64,000 nt of DNA from positions 1 to 64,000 of the forward strand of contig CAJPGC010000036.1 of assembly GCA_905339405.1 (NCBI GenBank), written 5' to 3'. Of the stretch, positions 2,129 through 17,729 are shown one piece after another. Source of the stretch: an uncultured bacterium. Its GTDB lineage: Bacteria; Desulfobacterota; GWC2-55-46. The notes beneath the pieces are model-generated. The model saw nothing but the letters and a program-made list of their open reading frames with translations. It was not told the origin of the DNA and did no database searches. The position numbers and the translations under genes were made by a program. The stretch's first letter is position 1; each line of letters begins with the position of its first letter.

Positions 2129-3028
2129 TTAGCGGACCTGAAGCTCCCGCTCAAGATAGTCCTTGCCGGCCCATCCGAGGTACCAGCCATTTGAAAAGCC
2201 GCCCTTTGTAACCGCCTTGAGCTCGGCTAACGCTTCTTTATTTTCGATTATCCCGTTCATGCGGGCCCTGAACACTTCGACTATCTTCCCCGTGTCTTTT
2301 GATTGCGGGGATATCCTCAGCGCGCCCGCCCCGGCCTCGCGCAGGCTGTCGACGAACTCGATGAGGGTATAGGTGTCGGCGCTCAGAATAGACGTGCCGT
2401 TCACGGAAAAGATGTTCTCCCCATCTACGGTCTTGAGGTCCATGCCGTCGGGGTATTTGAGGCAGTCGTGCTTGCAATTGGCCTTGCTGAGGCCGAAGGC
2501 GCGCGAAGTGTAGCACCTCCACGAGAAGGCAAGCGGAGCCTTGCCGTGCGCGAAGACCTCGCCGAAAACGCCGGTCTCCTTGAGGCAGTACCCGAATGAT
2601 TCCTTCGACATCTCGACGGGGAAAGTGACCCTGTTGACGCCGACGGACTTCAGGAACTCTATCGTGGGAGCGTTGTAGGCGGTTATGTGCGGGCCTGCGA
2701 AGACCTCGCGCGCCTTAGGGTCTGTCATGTTGAAGACGGCCATGTCGTTGGCCTCGATGGAGCAGCCGAACTCGAGGAGACGCCTCGTGAACTCGAGCTC
2801 GTCCTCGTTGGAGATGACGGCGAGGCTCGAGAGAGTGACCTTCTTTCCAGCGTCCTCGAGGAGCTTTATTATGGACTTGAGGTCGCTCCTGGAAAAACCG
2901 AGCTTCCTCGTGCAGACCACCTCGCCGATGTAGACCCTGTCCACGTCCATGCGGGCGGCTTGCTCATAGAACCTCAGCAGGTCGTCCTGGCTCCAGTCGA
3001 AAAGGACCGGCCCGAGCGTAAGCTCCAT
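2129..3028 (-). CDS. ubiV: UbiV, O2-independent ubiquinone hydroxylation (U32 family)
   Basis: This 299-residue U32-family protein matches UbiV, which with UbiU and UbiT allows ubiquinone ring hydroxylation without oxygen. The four cysteines expected to bind a [4Fe-4S] cluster are at 39, 172, 185 and 189. The last three have the CX12CX3C spacing I know from E. coli UbiV, and Cys39 is at the same position. I chose the ATG at 3028 because AAGGAA lies 8 bases upstream and the protein then begins MELTLGPVLFDW. An in-frame extension to 3133 is possible but has no family character. UbiU and UbiT are not in the window. Other U32 peptidase-like proteins (UbiU, TrhP/RlhA) lack this exact Cys layout. 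Confidence 0.85.
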   Translation of the reverse strand: MELTLGPVLFDWSQDDLLRFYEQAARMDVDRVYIGEVVCTRKLGFSRSDLKSIIKLLEDAGKKVTLSSLAVISNEDELEFTRRLLEFGCSIEANDMAVFNMTDPKAREVFAGPHITAYNAPTIEFLKSVGVNRVTFPVEMSKESFGYCLKETGVFGEVFAHGKAPLAFSWRCYTSRAFGLSKANCKHDCLKYPDGMDLKTVDGENIFSVNGTSILSADTYTLIEFVDSLREAGAGALRISPQSKDTGKIVEVFRARMNGIIENKEALAELKAVTKGGFSNGWYLGWAGKDYLERELQVR

Positions 3029-3154
3029 AAAAAACGTTCCTTTAATGGGGTTTTTACAAGTATAAAGTATGCAACAGGGGGGAGGGAAACTCAAGAAAAT
3101 TAAGATTCTCCGCCATAAATGACGGCAAAGCAAATGGGAGGCTTGAGCGGCCTG

Positions 3155-3895
3155 TCAGTATTCGACCCTGACGAGACAGAGCCCCTGGGCCGGGGCGGTC
3201 ATGCCGGCCGCTTCCCTGCTCCTGGCGTCTATTATCCCGTGGATGTCGGCAGGCCGCCTCTTGCCCTTGCCAACGGCAACGAGCGTGCCGACCATTATCC
3301 TCACCATGTGCCTCAGGAAGGCGGTGCCCCTGACCTCGATCTCCAGAAGTCCGTCTTCTTTTTCGAATATCTCTACGGAGGTGACTTCCCTTACCGCGTG
3401 GTTCGCGTCCGAGTCTGCGGCCATGAACGACGAAAAATCCTTTTCGCCTATGAAGTGCGTGGCGGCCTCCCTCATGGCCCCGAGGTCGAGAGGGTTGAAG
3501 ATGTTCCAGGAAAAATTACGCAGCAGGGCCGAAGGGTGGTTCCTGTTAACTATCCTGTAGAGGTATATCTTTCCCTTTGAGCCCCGCCTCGGGTCGAAAT
3601 CAGGCGGCATATCGATGGCTTCCTTGACCACGATGTCGTCCGGCAGAAAGAAGTTCAACCCTTTTATAAGGTCCTGGCAGGACATATCCGTGTCGGCTTT
3701 GAGGCCCACGACCTGCCCGAGCGCGTGCACCCCGGCATCAGTGCGCGACGCCCCGGCGACGCTGGCGTTCTCATCTCGCGTAAGCCTTCTGGCGACCTGG
3801 ACAAGTGTGCCCTGTACCGTCGGCAGGGTCTTCTGCGCCTGCCAGCCCGAGTAATTGGTGCCTTCATATTCTATGATGAGCTTTAAGTTCCTCAT
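3155..3895 (-). CDS. truA: tRNA pseudouridine synthase A
   Basis: TruA converts uridines 38-40 of tRNA anticodon arms to pseudouridine. The 246-residue length fits the family. The catalytic aspartate is Asp53 in GASRTDAGVHALGQV, and the N-terminal YEGTNYSGWQAQ and C-terminal FLRHMVRIMVGTLV motifs are present. It begins 60 bases after the asd stop, beyond a strong terminator. Expression therefore depends on read-through or on a promoter I could not identify. ubiV follows 126 bases downstream. Confidence 0.95.
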   Translation of the reverse strand: MRNLKLIIEYEGTNYSGWQAQKTLPTVQGTLVQVARRLTRDENASVAGASRTDAGVHALGQVVGLKADTDMSCQDLIKGLNFFLPDDIVVKEAIDMPPDFDPRRGSKGKIYLYRIVNRNHPSALLRNFSWNIFNPLDLGAMREAATHFIGEKDFSSFMAADSDANHAVREVTSVEIFEKEDGLLEIEVRGTAFLRHMVRIMVGTLVAVGKGKRRPADIHGIIDARSREAAGMTAPAQGLCLVRVEY

Positions 3896-3954: not shown

Positions 3955-4977
3955 TCAGATGTAATCTTTGATGAGCACTTCGGCTATCTGCACCGCGTTC
4001 AAAGCCGCGCCCTTGCGGAGGTTGTCGGCCACTATCCACATATTGATGCCGTTGGGCACGGTGTCGTCCCGCCTTATCCTGCCGACGAAGACCTCGTCCT
4101 GGCCCGCCACGTCGGAGGGCATCGGGTAGACGCCCTCTTTCGGATCGTCTATTACGATTACGCCGGGGGACTTGGCAAGGAGCTTTTTCACGTCCTCGGG
4201 GTCTATGGGCTTTTCGGTCTCTATGTTGACCGCCTCGGAGTGGCCGACGAAGACAGGCACGCGCACGGTCGTGGCCGTTACCTTCACCGACTCGTCGCCG
4301 AATATCTTGTGCGTCTCGTTGACCATCTTCATCTCTTCCTTCGTGTAGCCGTTGTCAAGGAAGGAGTCTATCTGCGGCAGGCAGTTGAAGGCTATTCTGT
4401 GGGGCAGCACCTCGACCTGGGGCTCCCTCATGTTGAAGAGCTCCTTCACCTGGGTCGAAAGCTCTTCCATCGCCTCCTTGCCCGCCCCCGAGACCGACTG
4501 GTAGGTCGAAACGACTATCCTCTTTATTTTGTACTTGTCGTGGATGGGCTTCAACGCCACGACCATCTGTATGGTCGAGCAGTTGGGGTTGGCGATTATG
4601 TTCTTTTTCGTGTACTTGGCTATGTCGCCGGGGTTGACCTCTGGCACCACGAGCGGCACGTCCGGGTCCATCCTGAACTGGCTGGTGTTGTCTATTACTA
4701 TGCAACCGGCATTGCCCGCAACCGGCGCGTACTTCGCGCTGACTGAAGCTCCCGGCGAAAAGAGGCCTATGTCGATGCCCTCGAAGGTCTCGTGCTGGAG
4801 GTCCTGTACGGTCTCTTCTACCCCCTTGAACTTGAGGGTATTGCCCGCGCTCCGTTCAGAGGCCAGCAGGCGTATCTCGCCGACCGGGAAGTTTCTCTCC
4901 TCGAGAATGGTCAAAAATTCCTTGCCGACGACGCCGGTCGCGCCTACGACGGCGACGTTGTACTTTTTCTTCTTCAC
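3955..4977 (-). CDS. asd: Aspartate-semialdehyde dehydrogenase
   Basis: Asd reduces aspartyl phosphate to aspartate semialdehyde with NADPH, feeding lysine/diaminopimelate, threonine and methionine synthesis. The Rossmann motif VGATGVVG is at residues 11-18. The catalytic cysteine is Cys133 in NPNCSTIQ, and the histidine motif FVGHSEAVN is present. I chose the GTG at 4977, preceded by GAGG at about 7 bases, because the protein then opens directly with the nucleotide-binding strand; a longer frame to 5058 adds 27 residues without family character. The gene has its own promoter upstream and a terminator downstream. Confidence 0.95.
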   Translation of the reverse strand: MKKKKYNVAVVGATGVVGKEFLTILEERNFPVGEIRLLASERSAGNTLKFKGVEETVQDLQHETFEGIDIGLFSPGASVSAKYAPVAGNAGCIVIDNTSQFRMDPDVPLVVPEVNPGDIAKYTKKNIIANPNCSTIQMVVALKPIHDKYKIKRIVVSTYQSVSGAGKEAMEELSTQVKELFNMREPQVEVLPHRIAFNCLPQIDSFLDNGYTKEEMKMVNETHKIFGDESVKVTATTVRVPVFVGHSEAVNIETEKPIDPEDVKKLLAKSPGVIVIDDPKEGVYPMPSDVAGQDEVFVGRIRRDDTVPNGINMWIVADNLRKGAALNAVQIAEVLIKDYI

Positions 4978-5043
4978 TTGAAACCTCGATGTCCAATTCC
5001 TCCGGACAAGAGCCGGAAGGTTATTATGGAGTGTTAGAATTTT

Positions 5044-5071
5044 ATCATAATAAAGCAAAAAACATAGTCAA
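5044..5071 (-). promoter_or_regulatory. Sigma-70-like promoter for asd
   Basis: Read on the minus strand: -35 TTGACT, a 16-base spacer, then -10 TATGAT. Transcription would start near 5037, about 60 bases before the asd GTG. The -35 box lies just beyond the stop codon of the EamA gene. Confidence 0.6.
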
Positions 5072-5072
5072 G

Positions 5073-5963
5073 TCAATCGCTCTGTTTGGCTTTACCGCCC
5101 CCGAATACAACGAGCATGACCGCGGCGGTTATGGCCGCCATCGCGCCCAGGCCCGCGCCTGTTATCTTCTCTCCGGCGGCGGCCACCCCGATGAGCACGG
5201 CGAATACAGGATTCACGTAGGCGTAAGAGGTCGCAAGAGAGGCCCGGACGTTGTTTATGAGCCAGGTATACGCTGAAAAGCCGATAATCGCGCCGAATAC
5301 TATGAGGTAGAAAAGAGCGGCACCCGAGCGGACTGATATTGCTTCTGGCATAGGCTCTCCCCAGAGAAAGCTCAAGACAAAGAAGAAAAACCCGCCAGAT
5401 ATCATCTGCACAGCCGCAGCCATGAGCCCCTTTGGAAGGGGCAGCCTTCTGCCCCACGCCGAGCCGAGCGACCAGCCGATTGTGGCTACAAGGATGGCCA
5501 GAGCGCCTGCCGGGTGTGCCCTGAAGTCGCCTTCGAGATTCAATAGGACTACACCGGCGAAGCCTAAAGCCACGCCGACCCATTCAAGCCTGGAAGGCCA
5601 TTTCCCCCAGAAGCCGAAGAAGAGGACCGTCCACAAGGGGACCGTCGCCACCCCTAATGCGGCCAAAGAGGAAGCAACCCACTGCTCGGCGTAGACGACC
5701 CCTCCGTTGCCCACGAGGAGAAGGAGAAAGCCGACAAGGGCCCCGGCCGCCCACTCCCTCGCCTCCGGCGCTTTTACGCCAGTGGCCCTCAAAAAGGCGT
5801 AGACCACCCAGCCGGAGATGAAAAAGCGCAGGCCCGCCATCATGAACGGCGGGATCGACTCTATCGCAATCCTTATTGCGAGATACGTGGAGCTCCAGAG
5901 TATGTAGACGGAAGCGAGGGCTGTCACTACCTTGAGCCGCTCGCCCGTTTGCGGGCTTGCCAA
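5073..5963 (-). CDS. EamA/DMT-family inner membrane exporter
   Basis: This protein of about 296 residues has ten hydrophobic segments in two EamA (drug/metabolite transporter) repeats. It resembles YedA-type exporters: a WSSTYLAIRIAIESIPP start to the first repeat, a GNGGVVYAEQW motif, and SLATSYAYVNPVFAVLIG in the second. The substrate is unknown. I prefer the TTG at 5963 because GGAAGGA lies 6 bases before it. An ATG at 5993 and longer frames run back into a non-coding repeat and lack a ribosome binding site. Confidence 0.85.
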   Translation of the reverse strand: MASPQTGERLKVVTALASVYILWSSTYLAIRIAIESIPPFMMAGLRFFISGWVVYAFLRATGVKAPEAREWAAGALVGFLLLLVGNGGVVYAEQWVASSLAALGVATVPLWTVLFFGFWGKWPSRLEWVGVALGFAGVVLLNLEGDFRAHPAGALAILVATIGWSLGSAWGRRLPLPKGLMAAAVQMISGGFFFFVLSFLWGEPMPEAISVRSGAALFYLIVFGAIIGFSAYTWLINNVRASLATSYAYVNPVFAVLIGVAAAGEKITGAGLGAMAAITAAVMLVVFGGGKAKQSD

Positions 5964-5997
5964 GAGAAATCCTTCCGAAGGAGATGATAACATTAAG

Positions 5998-6190
5998 GGC
6001 GCTGCCGCGCGAAGTACACCTACTGAAAACCATGTAACGCGGCTGCCGCCGCTCTCTGTAACAGGGTTCCGCGCGCTTTCAACCTCCCCCACCCGCGAAC
6101 CTCGCCCCTGAGGTCGCTTCGCTCCCGACAGCCTCGGCTCGGTTCGCCTCTTCCTCCCTTAGGCGCGCTCCGCCCTGTTACGGTGTATGG
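5998..6190. repeat. Dispersed ~190-bp repeat, copy 1
   Basis: This non-coding stretch upstream of the EamA gene closely matches 17983-18176 in inverted orientation. Shared blocks include GTAACGCGGCTGCCGCCGCT followed by CTCTGTAACA, CACCCGCGAA, CCCTGAGGTCGCTTCGCTCC and GGCGCGCTCCGC. It fills most of the gap between the EamA gene and rmuC. No protein-coding potential or transposase is visible. Confidence 0.75.
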
Positions 6191-6267
6191 TTAAAGACAA
6201 TACAAACACGTGGATTTAGCGAAACTAACTTGATCTTGTGTAATCAGCGAAGGCGGCCAGAGCCTCC

Positions 6268-7338
6268 CTACACCAGCTCCTTCTCCCCTTTTTCCTCCCC
6301 TCCGATGAGTTCGAGCCTATCGCTGAAGCGGGCCGACTTTTTTTCGACCTCGTCGTACTTCGCCTTGGCGAAGCCGATGTGGCGGCCCAGGGTCTCAAAG
6401 TCGTCGGAGAGCTTGTCGAACTCATGACGGAGCGTACTTATGTGGGCGAGTATCTCCTCGGCCCTCTCACCCACTTCCATGCCCCGAAGGCCCATGAGTA
6501 TCGTCTGGAGATAGGCGTAGAAGCTGTTCGGAGAGACCGGTATGACGCGCTTTGACAAGGCATAAGATGAAAGGGACCTGCCGGAGTCGTCCTCCATCGT
6601 GATGAACTCGTAGTAGACGCCCTCGGCGGGTATGTACATGAGCGCCAGGTTCAAAGTCCCTTCCGAAGGCCTTATGTAGCTCGTCGCTATGGCGTCGATG
6701 TGCTTGCGGCAGTCCGAGGCGAGCTTCCTTGACGAGACGCGGCGGGCATCGTCCGTTACGGCCTCCGAGAGCTTCCTGAAGTTCTCAAGAGGGAACTTCG
6801 AGTCTATGGGAACGAGACCCTCGTTAAGGCGTATTACGGCGTCCACTCTCGCGCCGTCGGCAAAACCATACTGAAGTTCGTACCTGCCCGAAGGGAGGCA
6901 TTGCGAGAGGAGCTCGCCGAGGAAGAACTCTCCGAGCCCTCCACGAAGCTTGGGTGCGGCAAGAATCTTTTCCAGCCCTGAGATTGATTTACCGAGCTCG
7001 AAGACCTGCTCGGTCGACTTCGACAGCTCCCCGAGGGCCTGCCTCACTTCGCCGACGGCCCTGTGCGCGCTGTCCATGCGGGTGTTTATCTGGCCGGTAG
7101 AGGAGTTGAGCTGGGCCGCAACCGAAGAAAGCTGCTCGGCGACCTGCCCGGTGACGGAAGAAAGCTGGGAATTTATGTGCCTGGTGTTGGCTGAAATGGT
7201 GTTTTGAAGCTCAGACCTCAATACGTTTATCTGCGATTCAAGTTCACCCTTACCCCGGCCTTTTGCCGCCTGCATGAAAAGGAGGGCGACAAGGGCGAGC
7301 ACAAGAACAGAAAGGACGGTTATGGCAAGAAGTTCCAT
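6268..7338 (-). CDS. rmuC: DNA recombination protein RmuC
   Basis: RmuC is a predicted nuclease-fold protein that limits recombination at inverted repeats. The 356-residue protein has an N-terminal membrane anchor (residues 3-23), a long coiled coil (about 30-120), and the RmuC core with RGGLGEFFLGELL, YGFADGARVDAVIRL and VPIDSKFPLENF. The nuclease-like core begins near residue 130. It is monocistronic here, between the double-activase terminator and the repeat at 5998-6190. No strong ribosome binding site precedes the ATG, and a stable hairpin lies just upstream. Confidence 0.93.
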   Translation of the reverse strand: MELLAITVLSVLVLALVALLFMQAAKGRGKGELESQINVLRSELQNTISANTRHINSQLSSVTGQVAEQLSSVAAQLNSSTGQINTRMDSAHRAVGEVRQALGELSKSTEQVFELGKSISGLEKILAAPKLRGGLGEFFLGELLSQCLPSGRYELQYGFADGARVDAVIRLNEGLVPIDSKFPLENFRKLSEAVTDDARRVSSRKLASDCRKHIDAIATSYIRPSEGTLNLALMYIPAEGVYYEFITMEDDSGRSLSSYALSKRVIPVSPNSFYAYLQTILMGLRGMEVGERAEEILAHISTLRHEFDKLSDDFETLGRHIGFAKAKYDEVEKKSARFSDRLELIGGEEKGEKELV

Positions 7339-7501: not shown

Positions 7502-10500
7502 TTAGACGTGCGCTTCGTTGTCCCTGTGCTTGCCGTGCTGCTTGTTCGAAGGCGAAGCGGCGTTCTGCCTTTCCATGAACTCCCGTGCCTGGTGCACGAA
7601 AGCCTCCATCCTCGTCATGGAGTTGGTGTCTTCAGAGCCCTCGTAGACCATATGCAGGTACGGGATGTTGCTGTTGTTCTCGCGGAGCCTCTTCAATACG
7701 GCGTTCACTATAGTACCCGGCATGCAGGTAAAGGGCATGGCGTTCACTATGCCGTGGCAGCCGTGGGATATGTACTCGAGCGACTTGCCGATGGAAAGGA
7801 CGGCCTCTCCCTCGAAGGAGTAATGGATATAGGGCGCGGCCCTGTCGATTATCTCCTTTACCGGAGGTTCGTGTCCGCTCCTCATGTCGCCGTTTATTAT
7901 GTTCTCCATCTTCTTCTCGTCGCGCCTCTGGAAGAAGTCGCTGGTTATGGTGCGGAAGTAATCGCCGAACTGGCCCCTCTCCCAGGTCCTCCTCTTGTTG
8001 CAGAAGTTGGTGTAGTATATCCACTCGCCTATCGTGGGCATCCTGACTTCCGCGCCAAGGGCCTCGAGCTTTTTCACCATGTTCTCGTTCGAGAACCTGT
8101 TGGACCTCACGTATATCTCGCCGACGACGCCTATTATGGGCTTTCCGCCTACCGGGTTCACCGGCACGCGCCTGAAAGCCTCCTTGGCCTCCCTCAGCTC
8201 TTTCTCCGGGAACCTCTTCTGCTCGACGGCGGCGCATATTTTGTGGACGAACTCCCAGTAGACCTTCTCAGCGTCGCCGGAGTTTTTCTCGTAAGGGCGC
8301 ACTTCCCTGAGCCTCTTCTCGAGGAGGTCTATGCCGCAAATGCCCCACCAGGCGAGCCTCGGGAAGTTCCCTTCCACTATGTTGAGCTCCCTGTAGAAGT
8401 TGCCGTCCTGGTCTGGCGCGTAGACAGGCACGTCAGAGAAACCAAGCTCGTCCAGGATGAGCCTGTGATAGCGGTTGTACTGGCCGAACCTGCACGGGCC
8501 GTTGCCCGAAGGCATGAAGAAGGCTGTCCGCTTGGGGTCGAAGCCCTCCTGCTTGAGTATCTTGACCATGTCGCCGGTCGTGAGGATGGCCGGGTAGCAC
8601 TCCCTTCCGGAGGTGTACCTGCGCCCCCACTTGAGGCTCTCCTCGTCCGGCTCGGGCATGACCTCGGCGTCGAGGCCGCACGCCCTGAAGGCCGCGGCTA
8701 TGCCGCGCGCGCCGTCGGACATGTTCGGCAGATAAAGCTTCTTTTTTATGCCGCTCCTGTCGAGGACCTGCTTCTCCCTAGCCTCTATCTTGAGCCTGCC
8801 CTTGGTGTTCCTGATGCTGTCGAGGAACGCCTCGCACCTGGTGATGGCGCCCGCGTCGGCCGAGTGCTCGTCTATCTCGAGCTGGAGGAAGGGCTTGCCA
8901 GCGGAGGCGTCCTTGTAGAAGTGGGATATCATCGAATCAGGGCCGCAGCCGAAGTTCGTTATGTATATCGAGAAAAGCCTGTTGTCGGTCTTTATCATCT
9001 TGGCCGCCGCCAGTATCCTCTGGCCGCTCCTCCAGTACATGTCCTCGGCAACCGCGCCTTCGGTGACGGAGTCGACGTCGAGCATGTCATTCGGTATGGC
9101 GATGGTGCCCATTTCGCGGAGCTTCTGCGGCAGCTCGAGGTTTATCCCGGAGTCGGTCGTGTTGTACGCCCTGCCTACTATGACAAGAGCGGTGTCTTCG
9201 GGCTTCAAGCCGTTTATGACCTCTTTGCCCCTGGCCAGCATCTTCTTCTTGAACTCGTCCTGGGCGGCAAAAGCCGCTTGCATGGCCTTGTCGACCGAGC
9301 CCTTGTCCTTGCCGAGCATCTTGCCGAACTCATAGAAGTCCTTCTTCATGAGGTTGTCTTTGGTGTTGAAGTGGATGACGGGGCTCAAGACCTCGACCCC
9401 GGCGGCCTTGAAGTCGTAAGCCGATTTGCACAGGTACGGTATGGTCTGGACGTACGGGCAGAGCTGCGTGAATATCTGCCCTTCCTTCGCCGGCTTCAGG
9501 TTTATTATGGAGGGCAGGAATATCTTCTTTACGCCCTTTTCCATCAGCTCGTTCACGTGCCCGTGGGCGACTTTTATCGGGAAGCAGGTCTCGGTGACTA
9601 TCTGCTCTATGCCGTTCTTTATTATCTCCTTGTTAGTCGGGGAGGAGAGCTGGGTCCTGAAGCCCAATACGTCGAAGAACGCCTTCCAGAACGGGTAGAG
9701 CTCGTACATGAAGAGCATCCTGGGGAAGCCTATTACAGGGGCGTCCTTGCCCGCGGCCTTTCCGGTATACGCGGAGAAGAGCATCTTCTCGCGCTCTTTG
9801 AAAAGGTCGGGCAGGTGGCTGTTCTTGGAGTCGTCCCTCTTGACGTCGTACTTCTCGCAGCGGCCTCCGTAGTAGAGCGGGGCCTCGCCTTCCATCACGA
9901 CCTTCCTGACTTCGCAGATGTTCGAGCAGTCCCTGCACTCGAACGAGGTGAGCTCGTACTTCTTCCTTCCGGCGTCCCAGCCCTTGAACTTCGTCTTCGC
10001 GCCCGAGGGCATCTCTTTTGCCGCGAGTATGGCCGCGCCGATTGCGCCGGTGACGTCGTGGTTCTCGGGCACGGTTATCTTCTTGCCCGTGACCTTCTCG
10101 AAGGCCGCCACGACGCCGAGGTTGGCTGCGGTGCCGCCCTGGAAGAATATCTTGTTTCCTATCCTCCTGTCGCCGACGACCCTGTTGAGGTAGTTCTGGA
10201 CGATGGAATACGAAAGCCCGGCCACGAGGCCGTCCTTCTCGACGCCCCTCTGCTGGTAGTGGACCATGTCCGACTCGATGAAGACCGTGCACCGCTCGCC
10301 CATGGGCGGCGGGGTCGTGCAGCCGAGCGCGAGGTCGCTGAACTCGCCCTTGATGCTGATGCCGAGCCTTTCGGCCTGCTCCTCGAGGAACGAGCCGGTA
10401 CCGGCCGCGCAGACCTTGTTCATCTCGAAGTCCACGACGACGCCGTCCTTCATGGCTATGTACTTGGAGTCCTGGCCGCCTATCTCGAATATGGTGTCGA

Positions 10501-11761
10501 CCTCGGGGTCGATTTCCGCGGCGGCGGTGGCCTGAGCGGTTATCTCGTTCCTTATTATGTCGGCGCCGATGAAGTCGCCGGAAAGGTACCTGCCGGAGCC
10601 GGTAGTGCCCACGCCGACGACGTTCACGAACTCGCCGCACTCGTCCCCGACCGAGCTGAGCCCCTGCCTTATGGCCTCAAGAGGCCTTCCGGCGGTTGCC
10701 AGGTAGCGCTTGGTCACGAGCTTGTTCTGCCTGTCTATGAGTATGACGTTGGTGCTGGTGGAGCCCACGTCTATGCCGAGGTACGTATCAACTTTTTTGC
10801 CCTTCTCGAGGACGTACCCGGTGGAGCTCTTTCTCTGGGAGGGATGCCCCTCGGGGCGGGTGAGCTTGTCGAGCGACCTGTCGTTCTTACGGCCGCTTCC
10901 AATGTACTCGCTCAATGCCTCGACGCCCTTGAACGCGCCGATGGCCTTGCTCATCTCAAGGCAGGTGAAGACCGCGCCGAGCGCGCCCATGGAAGAGAAG
11001 TGCGCCGGGATGATGTAGTCTTTGTCGTCGAGTTCGAGGACTTCCTTGAAGGCCTTCCTGACGCCGAGGTTGGCGGCAACGCCGCCTTGGAAAGCCACGG
11101 GCTTTACGAACTCCTTGCCCTTGCCGATTGTCGCCTTGAAGTTCCTCGCCACGGCGTAGCAGAGCCCGGCCACGATGTCGTAGTCGGGCGTTGCTATCTG
11201 CTGGAGGTGTATCATATCGCTCTTTGCGAAGACCGAGCAGCGCCCGGCCACTCTCGGCGGGTGCTTGCTCTTCAAAGCCAGGTGGCCGAAGTCCTCAATA
11301 GTGAGGCCCATCCTGTAGGCCTGCTGGTCGAGGAACGAGCCGGTGCCAGCAGCGCAGACCGAGTTCATCTGGAAGTCGGCTATGCGCATCTTCCCGGCGT
11401 CCCCCTCAGGGGCCATGAATATGAGCTTGGCATCCTGGCCGCCCATCTCGATTATGGTCCTGGCCTCGGGGTGGTAGACCTCGGTGGCCTTTGCCTGCGC
11501 GATGACCTCGTTGGTGAAGCCCGCGCCTATCAAGGGGGCTATGAGCTTGCCGCCCGAGCCGGTGGCGGCCACGAGCTTTATGTTCTCTTTTCCGTACTTG
11601 TGGATTATCTCTGAAAGGATGGAAAGGGACGTTTCAAGCGGCTCGCCCTTGGTCCTCGTGTAATGCTCTTCGAGCAGGTTCCTGTGCTCGTCGAGCACGA
11701 CCGTATTGGCGCTCACGGAGCCGATATCTATACCGACGTAGAAGGTTTTTGACCCAGACAA
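7502..11761 (-). CDS. Double BadF/HgdC-type acyl-CoA dehydratase activase with DUF2229
   Basis: This 1419-residue protein carries two BadF/BadG/BcrA/BcrD ATPase domains in tandem (about 6-265 and 325-585), each with DIGS/DVGS phosphate loops. They are followed by a Cys-rich segment (FECRDCSNIC), a DUF2229 domain and an HgdB-like C-terminal region. Each ATPase repeat holds VCAAGTGSFL and an RC(S/T)VF.SDM motif. In single-domain activators the matching cysteines bind a [4Fe-4S] cluster between two subunits, so one chain could form it alone. The family uses ATP to drive low-potential electron transfer to 2-hydroxyacyl-CoA dehydratases or benzoyl-CoA-type reductases. No such partner is nearby, so the substrate is unknown. 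The TTG start has GGAGGT 5 bases upstream. Confidence 0.92.
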   Translation of the reverse strand: MSGSKTFYVGIDIGSVSANTVVLDEHRNLLEEHYTRTKGEPLETSLSILSEIIHKYGKENIKLVAATGSGGKLIAPLIGAGFTNEVIAQAKATEVYHPEARTIIEMGGQDAKLIFMAPEGDAGKMRIADFQMNSVCAAGTGSFLDQQAYRMGLTIEDFGHLALKSKHPPRVAGRCSVFAKSDMIHLQQIATPDYDIVAGLCYAVARNFKATIGKGKEFVKPVAFQGGVAANLGVRKAFKEVLELDDKDYIIPAHFSSMGALGAVFTCLEMSKAIGAFKGVEALSEYIGSGRKNDRSLDKLTRPEGHPSQRKSSTGYVLEKGKKVDTYLGIDVGSTSTNVILIDRQNKLVTKRYLATAGRPLEAIRQGLSSVGDECGEFVNVVGVGTTGSGRYLSGDFIGADIIRNEITAQATAAAEIDPEVDTIFEIGGQDSKYIAMKDGVVVDFEMNKVCAAGTGSFLEEQAERLGISIKGEFSDLALGCTTPPPMGERCTVFIESDMVHYQQRGVEKDGLVAGLSYSIVQNYLNRVVGDRRIGNKIFFQGGTAANLGVVAAFEKVTGKKITVPENHDVTGAIGAAILAAKEMPSGAKTKFKGWDAGRKKYELTSFECRDCSNICEVRKVVMEGEAPLYYGGRCEKYDVKRDDSKNSHLPDLFKEREKMLFSAYTGKAAGKDAPVIGFPRMLFMYELYPFWKAFFDVLGFRTQLSSPTNKEIIKNGIEQIVTETCFPIKVAHGHVNELMEKGVKKIFLPSIINLKPAKEGQIFTQLCPYVQTIPYLCKSAYDFKAAGVEVLSPVIHFNTKDNLMKKDFYEFGKMLGKDKGSVDKAMQAAFAAQDEFKKKMLARGKEVINGLKPEDTALVIVGRAYNTTDSGINLELPQKLREMGTIAIPNDMLDVDSVTEGAVAEDMYWRSGQRILAAAKMIKTDNRLFSIYITNFGCGPDSMISHFYKDASAGKPFLQLEIDEHSADAGAITRCEAFLDSIRNTKGRLKIEAREKQVLDRSGIKKKLYLPNMSDGARGIAAAFRACGLDAEVMPEPDEESLKWGRRYTSGRECYPAILTTGDMVKILKQEGFDPKRTAFFMPSGNGPCRFGQYNRYHRLILDELGFSDVPVYAPDQDGNFYRELNIVEGNFPRLAWWGICGIDLLEKRLREVRPYEKNSGDAEKVYWEFVHKICAAVEQKRFPEKELREAKEAFRRVPVNPVGGKPIIGVVGEIYVRSNRFSNENMVKKLEALGAEVRMPTIGEWIYYTNFCNKRRTWERGQFGDYFRTITSDFFQRRDEKKMENIINGDMRSGHEPPVKEIIDRAAPYIHYSFEGEAVLSIGKSLEYISHGCHGIVNAMPFTCMPGTIVNAVLKRLRENNSNIPYLHMVYEGSEDTNSMTRMEAFVHQAREFMERQNAASPSNKQHGKHRDNEAHV

Positions 11762-12107: not shown

Positions 12108-12437
12108 TTACTTCGCCATTCCCTTGAGGGTGGCTACGACGGCCTTTACTTCGTCGTCGTTGAGCTTCTGCTTCGGCATGCCGATGGCGTACTGCTTGTA
12201 CTTCTTGGCGGCGCCTTCGCGGCCCTTCAGGATGGTGTCAGAAACTTCGGCGTCAGCGGCGCCCTTTACCCAGGCGTTGCCTTTGAAAGCAGGCGCCATT
12301 GCGGTGCCCTGTCCGTCAGCGCCGTGGCAGGCCGCGCACTTTGCCTTGTAGATGGCGGCTCCGTCGGCAGCGATAGCGGTTCCAGTGAAAGCAGCAACAC
12401 CAAGAGCGAGAATACCTATTCCCAATAACTTGCGCAT
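12108..12437 (-). CDS. Monoheme class I c-type cytochrome
   Basis: This is a small exported electron carrier of 109 residues. A signal peptide ends near TAIA-ADG (residues 20-25). The heme site CAACH is at 34-38, and the likely sixth ligand is Met88 in IGMPKQKL. It is the last gene of an apparent operon with the heme-copper oxidase-like protein and heme O synthase, so it is a natural electron donor for that enzyme. GGAGG precedes the ATG by about 6 bases. The partner assignment is inference from position. Confidence 0.93.
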   Translation of the reverse strand: MRKLLGIGILALGVAAFTGTAIAADGAAIYKAKCAACHGADGQGTAMAPAFKGNAWVKGAADAEVSDTILKGREGAAKKYKQYAIGMPKQKLNDDEVKAVVATLKGMAK

Positions 12438-12543: not shown

Positions 12544-13413
12544 TTAAAGCATATCTTTAATGGCCATGTCAATGATGACGGAAGTGAACAAAACACCCAG
12601 GTACATCATTGATATCTTGAAGTTTTTCCATGCAACTTCCCTGGCCGGGTTCTTCACGAGCCTTACGTTCCAGTATATGAAGTACGCCCCCATGAGGACG
12701 GCAGCGGCAAGGTATATGGGGCCGCAGGTGCCCAAAAACCATGGAGCGAGGGAAGAAGCGACCAGCACGATGGTGTTGACGAGCGTATACACGGCCGTCC
12801 TGCGGTCGCCGATGACGACCGGCAGCATGGGGACCCCGGCTTTCGCGTACTCTTCCCTGTGATAGATTGCGAAGCTCCAGAAATGCGAAGGGGTCCAGAA
12901 GAACATCACTATCGCAAGTAGGACCGGAGGTGTGCAGAACTCCGGAGATGCTGACGCGCCCCCGGCCAGGACGGCGAAGCTTCCGGCCAGCCCCCCTATT
13001 ATTATGTTCATCCAGCTCCTTCTCTTGAGCCAGACGGTATATATGACGGAGTAGACAAAGGCCCCGAAGGCAAGGTGGAGGGCTACCATGTAGTTGAGGG
13101 CCGCCAGAGAGACCGCCAGGGAGAGGATGAAGAGGCCCGCCGCCATAACGAGCACGAGCTTCGAGCCTGCTACGTCGCCGGAGGGGAGCGGCCTTTTCCG
13201 GGTCCTGGCCATGACCGCGTCTATGTCGCTGTCGAAATAGTGGTTGAAGGCTGAGGCCGAGGCAGCTGCCAGCATGGTCGCGGCCACAAGGAAGGCCATC
13301 TTCCCGAACGGGAGGCCGTCGGAGGACGCCGCGATGAGGCCGACTATGGCGCTGAAGGTTATGAGGCTGCAGATGCGCAGCTTGAACAAGGGCAGGTATT
13401 TAGCGACCCCCAT
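12544..13413 (-). CDS. ctaB: Protoheme IX farnesyltransferase (heme O synthase)
   Basis: CtaB/CyoE attaches a farnesyl chain to heme b to make heme O in the membrane. The protein has 289 residues and about nine membrane segments. The prenyltransferase motif NHYFDSDIDAVMARTRKRP lies around residues 60-80, and a second Asp-containing loop region is present. GGAGG lies 7 bases before the ATG. It sits between the oxidase-like gene and cytochrome c. Heme O is not used by ordinary cbb3 oxidases, so its place here suggests that the neighbouring oxidase-like protein may carry heme O or a derived heme. Confidence 0.94.
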   Translation of the reverse strand: MGVAKYLPLFKLRICSLITFSAIVGLIAASSDGLPFGKMAFLVAATMLAAASASAFNHYFDSDIDAVMARTRKRPLPSGDVAGSKLVLVMAAGLFILSLAVSLAALNYMVALHLAFGAFVYSVIYTVWLKRRSWMNIIIGGLAGSFAVLAGGASASPEFCTPPVLLAIVMFFWTPSHFWSFAIYHREEYAKAGVPMLPVVIGDRRTAVYTLVNTIVLVASSLAPWFLGTCGPIYLAAAVLMGAYFIYWNVRLVKNPAREVAWKNFKISMMYLGVLFTSVIIDMAIKDML

Positions 13414-13458: not shown

Positions 13459-14859
13459 TCAGTTTTCCGAAGCCACGGCTGCGTCCGCGCTTGCAGGTTC
13501 TGTTCTGCCGAAAAGAGAGAGCATGGCGTTCAAAACGAACGCTATGCCGCCGGATATTGCGACCAACCCGCCTATGCCCATTATGGACATCGCTATGAAC
13601 TTGGCCGTCGTATCGAGGTTCTGCTCGCCCCCGTAGGTCTTTCTCGCCACACCGTGCCCCCCGGCGATGAAGAGGCCGACGGCGAACAGGACTATGCCGA
13701 GACTATAGAGGTACGGCTGTATAGCCGCCAGGCGCTTCGACCAGACGGTCTTGCCGAAAACGGGCAGTATCTCATAGAAAAGGCCCATGAAGGCGATCGT
13801 GACCGCACCTATGACGCAATGGTAATGGGCGGGTATTATCGTATTCACCCCGCCTATGCCCACCCCTATGAGCCCGCCCATGAGGAAAATCGAGATGGAG
13901 AGCACGAGGGAGGAGAAGGCCGGGTCGGCCCAGGGCCTGCGGCCAGCGACTATGGTAAGAGCGGCCGCGAGCATGAAGATGGTTGTGGAAGGGCCTATGC
14001 CCCACTGCATGAGCCAGGTGAAGCTCTCTTTGTAAGCCTGCGTCGAGGTGTCGTGGAGAAAATATATGACAGGCGACGGTATTATGAAGACCAGAAATAG
14101 CGCGTAGAGCGCCTTTGAGACAACAGGCGGGAGCGGCTCTTTTTTGAAGACCAGGAACGAAAGATAGAGCCAGACGGCTATCATGGCCATCGTGTTCGCG
14201 AACTGGAGTATGTGGCCGCCTCCCCAGAAAAGCCTCTCGAAATCCAGGAACATCTTTCCTGTCGAATACTGGAACCACCCGGAAAGGGCGAAACAGGCCA
14301 GGGCCACGCCAACTCCGATGCCGGAGGCCGCCATGCCGAAGGTGATGACGGGGAGCCTGCCTTCGCGAGTACCTGAAAAGAGAGTAGCGAAAGAGTTCAC
14401 GAGGTTAAATATTATGCCGGAAGCGAACAATACGAGGCCGACATAGAAAACAGGCGTAAGGAGCACCGGCACGTAGTTGGCCAGCTCTGCGTTGCCGAGG
14501 CCGAAGACGGCTGATATGACCACGAGGGCCATGCCGCAGCCTGAAAGAAGGACGGAGACCCAGCCGAGGGCCGGGGAGAAGACCTTCTTTTTCATTAGGG
14601 CGGTCGTCGAGAAGACCCACAGGAAGCCCTCGAAGGCCAGAAACCAGATGACCACCGCAAGGACGACATGGCCTACCAGGGCCACATATATATAGTCCCT
14701 GCCGAGCGGGAGCATCTCTTCAATTACGGGGGTCCTCGCCAGGGCCACGAGGAGGGCGAATATCCCGGCGAAGACTAACGAAAATACCGCCAGGACAAGC
14801 CATCCATAGGCTATTTTCATGCTTGTCCGCTCAAAGGAGCCCAAAGTCAGGCCGTTCAT
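13459..14859 (-). CDS. Divergent heme-copper oxidase/NO reductase-like subunit I
   Basis: This membrane protein of about 466 residues has roughly 12 helices and heme-copper oxidase landmarks. A low-spin heme His (His64 in VGHVVLAVV), the metal-site His in FWGGGHILQF (His216), and the heme pair AHYH (His345, His347) are visible. In helix VII, where oxidases carry two adjacent histidines, it has LHD (His269-Asp270). The Tyr of the A/B-type HPEVY motif is Phe. It could be a cbb3/NorB-like oxidase or an alternative nitric oxide reductase. It heads an operon with ctaB and cytochrome c. I prefer the ATG at 14859 (GAAGGG 6 bases upstream) over the ATG at 14880, which would leave almost no leader after the predicted promoter. 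Confidence 0.8.
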   Translation of the reverse strand: MNGLTLGSFERTSMKIAYGWLVLAVFSLVFAGIFALLVALARTPVIEEMLPLGRDYIYVALVGHVVLAVVIWFLAFEGFLWVFSTTALMKKKVFSPALGWVSVLLSGCGMALVVISAVFGLGNAELANYVPVLLTPVFYVGLVLFASGIIFNLVNSFATLFSGTREGRLPVITFGMAASGIGVGVALACFALSGWFQYSTGKMFLDFERLFWGGGHILQFANTMAMIAVWLYLSFLVFKKEPLPPVVSKALYALFLVFIIPSPVIYFLHDTSTQAYKESFTWLMQWGIGPSTTIFMLAAALTIVAGRRPWADPAFSSLVLSISIFLMGGLIGVGIGGVNTIIPAHYHCVIGAVTIAFMGLFYEILPVFGKTVWSKRLAAIQPYLYSLGIVLFAVGLFIAGGHGVARKTYGGEQNLDTTAKFIAMSIMGIGGLVAISGGIAFVLNAMLSLFGRTEPASADAAVASEN

Positions 14860-14891
14860 GCCGTTCCCTTCTACTTTCATGCTTTATAGCA

Positions 14892-15062: not shown

Positions 15063-15290
15063 ATGATCAGGGATAGAGTCGAAGAGGCCCTTAACGGGAT
15101 AAGGCCCGCACTCCAGGCCGATGGCGGAGACGTCGAGCTCGTCGATATAGACGAGGCCGAAGGCATAGTGAGGGTCCAGCTCCAGGGCGCGTGTTCAGGC
15201 TGCCCCAGCGCGCAGATAACCCTCGCGATGGGCGTTGAAAGGGCCATCAAGGAGAGGGTCCCCGAAGTAAAGCAGGTCCTTTCCGTCTGA
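15063..15290 (+). CDS. Nfu/NifU C-terminal-type iron-sulfur scaffold
   Basis: This 75-residue protein is a stand-alone NifU C-terminal domain, which holds and passes on [4Fe-4S] clusters. The family core LQADGGDVELVDI is at residues 17-29, and the cluster-binding CxxC is in GACSGCPSA near residue 45. GGAGG lies 7 bases before the ATG. It is the first gene of the plus-strand group facing away from the oxidase operon, which suggests cluster supply or repair for its neighbours. Confidence 0.93.
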   Translation: MIRDRVEEALNGIRPALQADGGDVELVDIDEAEGIVRVQLQGACSGCPSAQITLAMGVERAIKERVPEVKQVLSV

Positions 15291-15431: not shown

Positions 15432-15653
<222 letters not shown>

Positions 15654-15675: not shown

Positions 15676-16098
15676 ATGAGCAAAATAACAGTCTGGTTCA
15701 TACGTTTCGCCATAATCTACTTCCTCATCGCAATACTCCTGGGCCTGCACATGAGCGTTGCCGGCCCGGTATACCCGTGGATGCCGATACACGCGCACTT
15801 CAACCTCCTCGGCTGGATGTCGATGATGATATACGGCGTGGGCTACCACATACTCCCGAGGTTTTCCGGAAAGCCGCTCTTCAGCGACGGCCTTGCCATG
15901 GCCCAGCTGTGGCTCGCGAACATAGGCCTCGTCGGCATGGCCGCCGGGTGGTGGGTAAGGAGCGCGAGCGGCTCCAACACGGTCCTCCTCATATTCTCGC
16001 TCGTCGAGTCGCTCTCGATAGTGTTCTTCGCCGTGAACATGCTCAAGACCATAAAGGCAGCTCCGGCCCCGGCTCCAGCGCCTCCGGCCAAGAAATAA
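15676..16098 (+). CDS. Four-helix protein resembling half a heme-copper oxidase subunit I
   Basis: This 140-residue membrane protein has four predicted helices. The motif WMPIHAHFNLLGWMSMMIYG (about residues 35-54) resembles oxidase helix X, where the HxH pair binds two hemes, and GVGYHILPRF follows. The N-terminal oxidase helices and copper-site histidines are absent, so it cannot be a full oxidase. It may bind heme or act as a sensor or accessory subunit; NnrS-like proteins are another comparison. It ends in an Ala/Pro-rich tail. GGAGG lies 7 bases before the ATG. It is encoded near, but divergently from, the full-length oxidase-like gene. Confidence 0.8.
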   Translation: MSKITVWFIRFAIIYFLIAILLGLHMSVAGPVYPWMPIHAHFNLLGWMSMMIYGVGYHILPRFSGKPLFSDGLAMAQLWLANIGLVGMAAGWWVRSASGSNTVLLIFSLVESLSIVFFAVNMLKTIKAAPAPAPAPPAKK

Positions 16099-16103
16099 AG
16101 CCC

Positions 16104-16319
16104 ATGGCCGGCCCGATAACGAAAGAGATGGTCATAGGCGAGGTCATAGAGGAGTGGCCCGGGACGGCGGCCGTTTTCAAAAAATACTTCGGGAAGGGCT
16201 GCTCCGATTGTCCCGGGTCGAGGGTCGAGGACATAGACTTCGGCTCCACCATGCATAACGCGGACCTCGAGACGGTCCTTAAGGAACTTAACGAGATAGC
16301 CTCAAAGAAAAGGGGATAG
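16104..16319 (+). CDS. DUF1858 domain protein
   Basis: This 71-residue protein consists of one DUF1858 domain: ITKEMVIGEVIEEWPGTAAV, then KYFGKGCSDCPGSRVEDI. The CxxC near residue 38 is the typical feature. The domain is often found with hybrid-cluster or iron-sulfur proteins and may handle persulfide, a cluster or a redox disulfide. It starts 5 bases after the half-oxidase gene and ends 3 bases before the next one, so co-translation is likely. The biochemical role of stand-alone DUF1858 is unknown. Confidence 0.85.
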   Translation: MAGPITKEMVIGEVIEEWPGTAAVFKKYFGKGCSDCPGSRVEDIDFGSTMHNADLETVLKELNEIASKKRG

Positions 16320-16676: not shown

Positions 16677-17729
16677 TTGGCAAAGATAACAGAAGCGCAG
16701 GTCCTGGCGGCACTCGGCAAGGTCATGGACCCCGAGCTCGGCAAGGACCTCGTTACCCTCAATATGATAAAAGACGTCAAGGTCGACGGCACGAAGGTGA
16801 GCTTCAACCTCGTGCTTACGACTATGGCCTGCCCTCTCAAAAAGGAGCTTGAGGCGAACTGCGTGAACGCGGTAAAGGCGCTCCCCGGCGTGACCGAGGT
16901 CTCTCTCACTACCGGGGCGCAGGTGCCCAAGTCAAAGCAGCTCCCCGACAAGATGGCGATACCCGGCGTCAGCAACACGATAGCAGTTGCCAGCGGCAAA
17001 GGCGGCGTCGGCAAATCGACTGTCGCCGTGAACCTCGCGATGGCCCTCGCCCAGACCGGGGCGAGAGTGGGCCTCCTTGACACCGACCTTTACGGCCCGA
17101 GCCTTCCTCTCATGATGGGCATACACGAGCCGCTGCAGGCGACCCCTGAGGAAAAGCTCATCCCTCTGGAGAAGTTCGGGATGAAGCTCGTCTCCGTGGG
17201 CTTCATGCTCGACGAGGAGACCCCGCTCATCTGGAGGGGCCCTCTTGTGATGCAGCTCGTAAAGCAGTTCCTGGTAGGCGTTGAATGGGGAGAGCTCGAC
17301 TACCTCATAATAGACCTGCCGCCCGGCACCGGAGACGTCCAGCTGACGCTGGTGCAGACCATCCCGCTTACGGGCTCCGTCATAGTGACGACCCCGCAGG
17401 ACGTCGCGCTCATCGACGCGAGGCGCGCGATAAAGATGTTCAACGAGGTGAAGGTGCCTGTACTCGGCATAATCGAGAACATGAGCTACTTCGTATGCCC
17501 GCACTGCAACGGCACCTCTGAGATATTCAGCCACGGAGGGGGCCAGAAGACTTCCGACAGGTACAACGTGCCGCTTCTGGGGAAGATACCGCTCGACATA
17601 GCCATAAGGGAGGGCGGGGACTCCGGCATGCCCATAGTCCACGCCGACCCGGGCTCCGCGCACTCGAAGGCGTTCGTGGAGATAGCGCAGTCGGTTGCGG
17701 CGAAGATAAGCGTGCTGGACCTCTGCTAA
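16677..17729 (+). CDS. mrp: Mrp/ApbC-type P-loop iron-sulfur carrier
   Basis: Mrp (ApbC/NBP35 family) is an ATPase that carries and delivers [4Fe-4S] clusters. The protein has 350 residues. An N-terminal MIP18/DUF59 domain (about 1-80) precedes the deviant Walker A VASGKGGVGKST (104-115), and the cluster-binding CPHC pair lies near residue 265. The TTG start is supported by GGAGG 7 bases upstream. It follows the nfu/DUF542 operon on the same strand but is separated from it by a repeat element. That fits a common cluster-assembly theme. The gene ends at a strong terminator. Confidence 0.95.
   Translation: MAKITEAQVLAALGKVMDPELGKDLVTLNMIKDVKVDGTKVSFNLVLTTMACPLKKELEANCVNAVKALPGVTEVSLTTGAQVPKSKQLPDKMAIPGVSNTIAVASGKGGVGKSTVAVNLAMALAQTGARVGLLDTDLYGPSLPLMMGIHEPLQATPEEKLIPLEKFGMKLVSVGFMLDEETPLIWRGPLVMQLVKQFLVGVEWGELDYLIIDLPPGTGDVQLTLVQTIPLTGSVIVTTPQDVALIDARRAIKMFNEVKVPVLGIIENMSYFVCPHCNGTSEIFSHGGGQKTSDRYNVPLLGKIPLDIAIREGGDSGMPIVHADPGSAHSKAFVEIAQSVAAKISVLDLC

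Follow-up and report, generated by a model that had tools for sequence, protein, structure and literature searches.

A heme-copper oxidase subunit I paralog predicted to lack CuB and its association with genes of nitric oxide respiration

Results

Organization of the Locus

The window, the whole stretch of 64,000 nucleotides that was analyzed, contains an oxidase-like gene on the minus strand, followed on that strand by ctaB and the gene for a small cytochrome c. Divergent genes on the plus strand encode a NifU-like protein, a ferredoxin, a short COX1-like protein, a DUF1858 protein, and ApbC.

13459..14859, minus strand: heme-copper oxidase subunit I paralog, predicted to be CuB-less (Pfam COX1, orthologs, AlphaFold)
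12544..13413, minus strand: heme O synthase CtaB/CyoE (TIGR01473, 272.9 bits against a cut-off of 210.3)
12108..12437, minus strand: small periplasmic-type cytochrome c with CAACH (Pfam Cytochrom_C, E 4.3e-13)
15063-15290, plus strand: NifU-like protein (assigned by eye)
15468-15653, plus strand: two-cluster ferredoxin (assigned by eye)
15676-16098, plus strand: short COX1-like membrane protein of 140 aa (weak COX1 match)
16086-16319, plus strand: DUF1858/hybrid-cluster-protein-associated domain, following the short COX1-like protein
16677-17729, plus strand: ApbC-type Fe-S carrier

The ctaB gene begins 45 bp downstream of the oxidase-like gene, and the operon with a heme O synthase and a cytochrome c that the first-pass annotation had described is supported. 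Compared with the oxidase-like protein, the 140-aa COX1-like protein consists only of a CcoN-like HAH segment (HAHFNLLGW); a second weak PF00115 match was found in the same genome at C7:5875. Further along the minus strand (7502-11761), a 1419-aa protein was assigned by eye as tandem BcrA/HgdC-type activator ATPase domains with a dehydratase-like part, and this activator-like protein (cluster 18) is conserved near the gene cluster in several relatives.

The open reading frame encodes 466 aa from the ATG at 14859, which is a plausible start because AGAAGGG, a good ribosome-binding sequence, precedes it at a distance of about 6 bases. Translation from the in-frame ATG at 14880 would lengthen the protein by seven residues, to 473 aa, and residues are numbered here from that codon, so that the start at 14859 used in the first-pass annotation is Met8 and its His64, 216, 269, 345, and 347 are His71, 223, 276, 352, and 354. 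The protein matches Pfam COX1 (E 3.8e-25, 89 bits against a cut-off of 34.8) and no NCBIfam model at E 1e-3. A phmmer search of the PDB with the single sequence found nothing, and a match emerged only with the family profile.

The genome encodes NirS, two more cd1 proteins, a NorB (cNOR), an eNOR, and two aa3 oxidases, and no NirK or NosZ was found over the curated cut-offs, which makes the host likely to be a nitrite-to-N2O denitrifier. Its eNOR gene is located on another contig (C57) with a cupredoxin subunit II gene directly upstream.

Extent of the Family

A collection scan confirmed at least 526 relatives among the scanned species genomes. The 80 relatives listed belong to MAGs named Deltaproteobacteria, Nitrospirota, Nitrospinota, SAR324, Alpha-, Beta-, and Gammaproteobacteria, and the ligand pattern described below is not noise, as it holds over several phyla at 35-89% identity. 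Orthologs are present in 45 out of 97 relatives within the own lineage. A pseudogene or sequencing error is ruled out by these copies and those in several phyla, which carry the same pattern. The curated CtaD model matches 14 out of 53 family members; the protein in the window is matched by none. Some betaproteobacterial and gammaproteobacterial members (L116:6561-8432, L126:7587-9308, L130:7629-9332, and L146-L148) have an extension N-terminal to the oxidase-like part that brings the open reading frame to about 570-650 aa and may be a fusion or merely an over-long reading frame.

Heme and Metal Ligand Positions

The positions that correspond to the heme and metal ligands of the superfamily are as follows.

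14668..14670, minus strand: His71, low-spin heme ligand position in helix II, kept in all relatives covering the position
14212..14214, minus strand: His223 in helix VI, the sole surviving CuB-ligand position, invariant in 88 relatives, a residue that the scan pattern WGGGH favors
14062..14067, minus strand: Ile272-Tyr273, the columns of the CuB/FeB His-His in ba3, eNOR, and NorB (alignments)
14050..14055, minus strand: His276-Asp277, the "HD" of the first-pass annotation, not a ligand pair (alignments and conservation)
13819..13827, minus strand: His352-Tyr353-His354 in helix X, high-spin and low-spin heme ligand positions, invariant

Given the bias of WGGGH toward His223, conservation was rechecked on motif-free whole-genome hits from the own lineage and from 145 relatives of the L125 genome. 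His71, His223, Gln226, His352, Tyr353, and His354 hold wherever they are covered in these hits, none of which has a His-His at helix VII. The oxidase-like histidines of helices II, VI, and X named in the first-pass annotation (His71, 223, 352, and 354) are confirmed and occur in every relative covering the position (n = 88). Its motifs FWGGGHILQF, LHD, and AHYH are all found in the protein, and His223 sits within a conserved W-G-x-G-H-x-x-Q. Likewise, the active-site Tyr of A/B-type oxidases at His223+4 is a Phe, as that annotation had read it (Phe227; Phe in 79 out of 88 relatives). The heme-propionate position, R413-K414, is invariant in the 88 relatives. The low-spin heme histidines of helices II and X and the high-spin heme histidine of helix X that characterize the superfamily are thus all present, and of the three CuB/FeB histidines His223 is retained while the helix VII pair is Ile272-Tyr273.

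Three alignments gave the helix VII assignment: one by HMM to the ba3 oxidase 4faa/4fa7 (HHQFADP), one by profile-profile comparison to eNOR (EHHLLVDP), and one by MAFFT in which ba3, eNOR, and the NorB of the genome were aligned jointly. Each places Ile272-Tyr273 opposite the His-His; in aa3 oxidases the His-His column falls one residue later. Positions 272-273 in the 88 relatives are mostly Ile/Leu/Phe followed by Tyr/Phe. The first-pass annotation had placed His276-Asp277 at this position and had proposed an alignment as a check, which nearly went against it as foreseen: the columns of the pair lie elsewhere but hold no His pair. Its suggestion of a true NO or O2 reductase that uses His-Asp for His-His, perhaps gNOR-like, agrees with the LHD of the protein and with the retention of Asp277 in 71 out of 88 relatives, but is extremely improbable. 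Position 276 is Tyr in 40, Phe in 19, and His in only 18 of the 88 relatives, with other residues in the remainder, and most gammaproteobacterial members among the motif-free hits have no Asp277. Moreover, Asp277 pairs with the Asp of HHxxxDP, which ba3 and eNOR hold alongside their own His-His. Carboxylate-for-His ligation at helix VII is not supported. The diagnostic Asp of gNOR belongs at the helix VI position (PMC8756737), where Phe227 is found, and the proposed link to gNOR is not supported either. His276-Asp277 as a ligand pair is ruled out by the three alignments and the poor conservation of His276. Since position 276 is variable and Asp277 is the Asp of HHxxxDP, the CuB pair is absent and not swapped for His-Asp. 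Judged by its sequences, the family has retained the heme ligands without the CuB His pair, and with one of the three CuB histidines remaining a normal binuclear center is unlikely.

Fold and Phylogenetic Placement

The 12-helix subunit I fold of the superfamily was found by structure prediction (AlphaFold, pLDDT 91), by VIA (many oxidase subunits I, aligned over about 430 residues with Z of about 32-34), and by Pfam COX1; a ba3 oxidase ranked first in Foldseek. The suggestion that this is an unusual member of the heme-copper superfamily is supported. An eNOR model from 12 sequences was of moderate quality (pLDDT 75.5) and was not used in the conclusions. In a FastTree phylogeny the members group in one branch (0.995) that excludes eNOR, ba3, aa3, and NorB. 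One odd protein (L048:5983-7284, plus strand) is placed between the family and eNOR and represents a third oxidase-like type; it contains WIPGHIQQ, and a deletion spans its helix VII.

Gene Neighborhoods and Co-occurrence with eNOR

A contiguous cox2-eNOR-oxidase-like gene-ctaB-sco arrangement occurs at loci L076, L079, L082, L084, L087, and L094. The partner oxidase in these operons has the helix VI motif HxxQQ and the helix VII motif HHLLVDP and satisfies the published eNOR diagnostic (PMC8756737). At loci L064, L092, L115, L117, L118, and L120 the nearby heme-copper oxidase is an aa3 oxidase, in addition to which the L092 and L118 genomes carry an eNOR. Tandem eNOR copies were observed in two genomes (L049:104-1615 and 2267-3778 in G033:C301; G031:C67), and stop codons disrupt the eNOR of G027:C23.

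The most persistent neighbor is ctaB, which lies at most 1.5 kb from the oxidase-like gene in 32 out of 52 testable loci. It is also found at the aa3 loci L064, L115, L117, L118, and L120 and at loci without a nearby oxidase, and sco is likewise common, as might be expected of an assembly or heme-delivery partner that helps to supply eNOR or aa3 oxidase with the heme O made by the neighboring CtaB. Such a role is rather unlikely: it would not call for a complete 12-helix fold that retains every heme ligand, several loci have no nearby ctaB (e.g., L053, L099, L100, and L110), and the known oxidase assembly factors are, to our knowledge, unrelated to subunit I.

Neighbors at L125, L128, and L131 include nirS (Cytochrom_D1), genes for further cd1 proteins, NirJ, and a NirE-type methylase, as well as siroheme decarboxylase-like and NosR-like genes; adjacency to nirS and heme d1 genes occurs in some Gammaproteobacteria. 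At other loci NorQ, Rrf2, or a cytochrome b-Fer4-FlpD protein is encoded nearby. Proteins in which a cytochrome b is fused to 4Fe-4S and FlpD/MvhD-type domains were observed at L069:1253-3481 and 4816-6855, L125:5278-6855, and L092:12001-13488, often as a pair flanking a NuoF-like gene next to the oxidase-like gene, and are a possible electron-input module.

Within the own lineage, both the oxidase-like gene and eNOR are present in 35 genomes, the oxidase-like gene only in 10, eNOR only in 1, and neither in 51, counts that take in fragments and one disrupted copy (Fisher p 3e-16). Among the relatives of the L125 genome the corresponding numbers are 15, 6, 6, and 118 (Fisher p 2e-11); shared ancestry inflates both p-values, and the two distant lineages agree. 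An eNOR was found in 29 out of 37 further carrier genomes and is missing from 8. Given carriers without eNOR and eNOR genomes without the oxidase-like gene, the two are not mutually required.

Discussion

Overall, the protein is probably a helper or heme subunit and not an ordinary O2 or NO reductase. Of the earlier proposal of an NO or O2 reductase, the NO context has held up (eNOR operons, nirS/heme d1 neighbors, and the nirS, cNOR, and eNOR of the host genome), and the reductase step, with one CuB histidine left, has not. On balance we lean slightly toward a CuB-less, diheme, heme-bearing companion of an NO-respiration module that does not itself reduce NO or O2. Judging from the conserved histidines, His71 and His354 would hold a low-spin heme and His352 a second heme. 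With the helix VII pair missing, no normal heme-copper or heme-iron center would be expected, and in place of a CuB ligand His223 may either cap the second heme, giving a bis-His diheme electron carrier, or act as a distal base. The companion would then pass electrons to the catalytic enzyme or stabilize it. The module would comprise eNOR with its CuA subunit, ctaB, sco, and, in many lineages, the cytochrome b-ferredoxin-FlpD protein; in some lineages an aa3 oxidase would be the partner instead. Counting against a companion role, 10 of the 45 own-lineage carriers and 8 of the 37 further carriers have no eNOR, and 6 of the 21 eNOR-bearing L125 relatives have no oxidase-like gene. The aa3 oxidase as neighbor at L064, L115, L117, L118, and L120 and the separate contig of the eNOR in the host genome weigh in the same direction. 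The invariance of His223 and Gln226 also counts against it, since such conservation would not obviously be expected of a purely structural role.

A more exciting reading than the companion role is a gas-binding mononuclear heme on an oxidase scaffold, with His352 below and His223/Gln226 above, that acts as a scavenger of NO or O2, a sensor, or a slow reductase. His223, Gln226, and Tyr353 are invariant across several phyla in the 88 relatives, nitrite-to-NO genes and hemerythrin-like, Rrf2, and NorQ-type neighbors accompany the gene at some loci, and the gene sometimes occurs without eNOR, all of which would suit gas binding. We nevertheless regard this reading as unlikely, as the protein has no signaling domain, a second metal is normally needed for two-electron NO reduction in the superfamily, and we know of no heme-copper superfamily member that functions in this manner. 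Quite improbable is a hitherto undescribed multi-phylum branch with a dismantled binuclear center whose remaining heme, overlaid by His223 and Gln226, performs single-heme NO chemistry beside nitrite reductase and eNOR, be it disproportionation, capture, or slow reduction.

A binuclear center is the defining feature of the heme-copper superfamily. A conserved, widespread branch in NO-respiration operons in which the heme ligands remain and the CuB pair is gone would add a new type of component to denitrification and is a natural test of what the heme-copper scaffold is able to do without the second metal. Curated models call the family an oxidase or miss its members, and predictions of N2O production would go astray if it were placed among the O2 or NO reductases. 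A literature search for superfamily members that lack CuB returned nothing relevant, and the branch may have been mentioned earlier.

Comparison with Known Families

The top PDB profile match is the ba3 oxidase of Thermus thermophilus (E 3e-17; also 7deg), which differs in having CuB with three histidines and a Tyr at +4 and shares 18-21% identity with the oxidase-like protein. Membership of cbb3 oxidases (CcoN) was rejected, as the protein has no match to TIGR00780, and membership of cNOR/qNOR, with Glu at helix VI and His-His at helix VII, was rejected by comparison with the NorB of the genome (HLWVEGVWE and GHHYYW). The gNOR family belongs to the same superfamily and is a proposed NOR with a carboxylate in the active site, but its published description, with Asp at the helix VI Tyr position, sets it apart, as does the published definition of sNOR, with Asn at the helix VI active-site position (PMC8756737 Table A4); membership of both fails on Phe227. 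The subunit I of eNOR, a B-family-related nitric oxide reductase with HxxxQ, shares the fold, the low-spin and high-spin heme ligands, the helix VI His, and the Gln at +3 (profile-profile probability 100%; about 33% identity to the eNOR of the same genome). It differs in its helix VII His-His, where Ile-Tyr is found here, and in the diagnostic +4 Gln at the helix VI Tyr position (PMC8756737), where Phe227 excludes membership. A cupredoxin subunit II gene directly upstream, as expected for eNOR, is absent in the window, where divergent Fe-S type genes are found instead. As the diagnostics of all tested NOR classes are lacking, the protein should not be filed as gNOR or under any other named NOR. 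By these sequence comparisons, its being an eNOR is not supported, and its working beside eNOR is.
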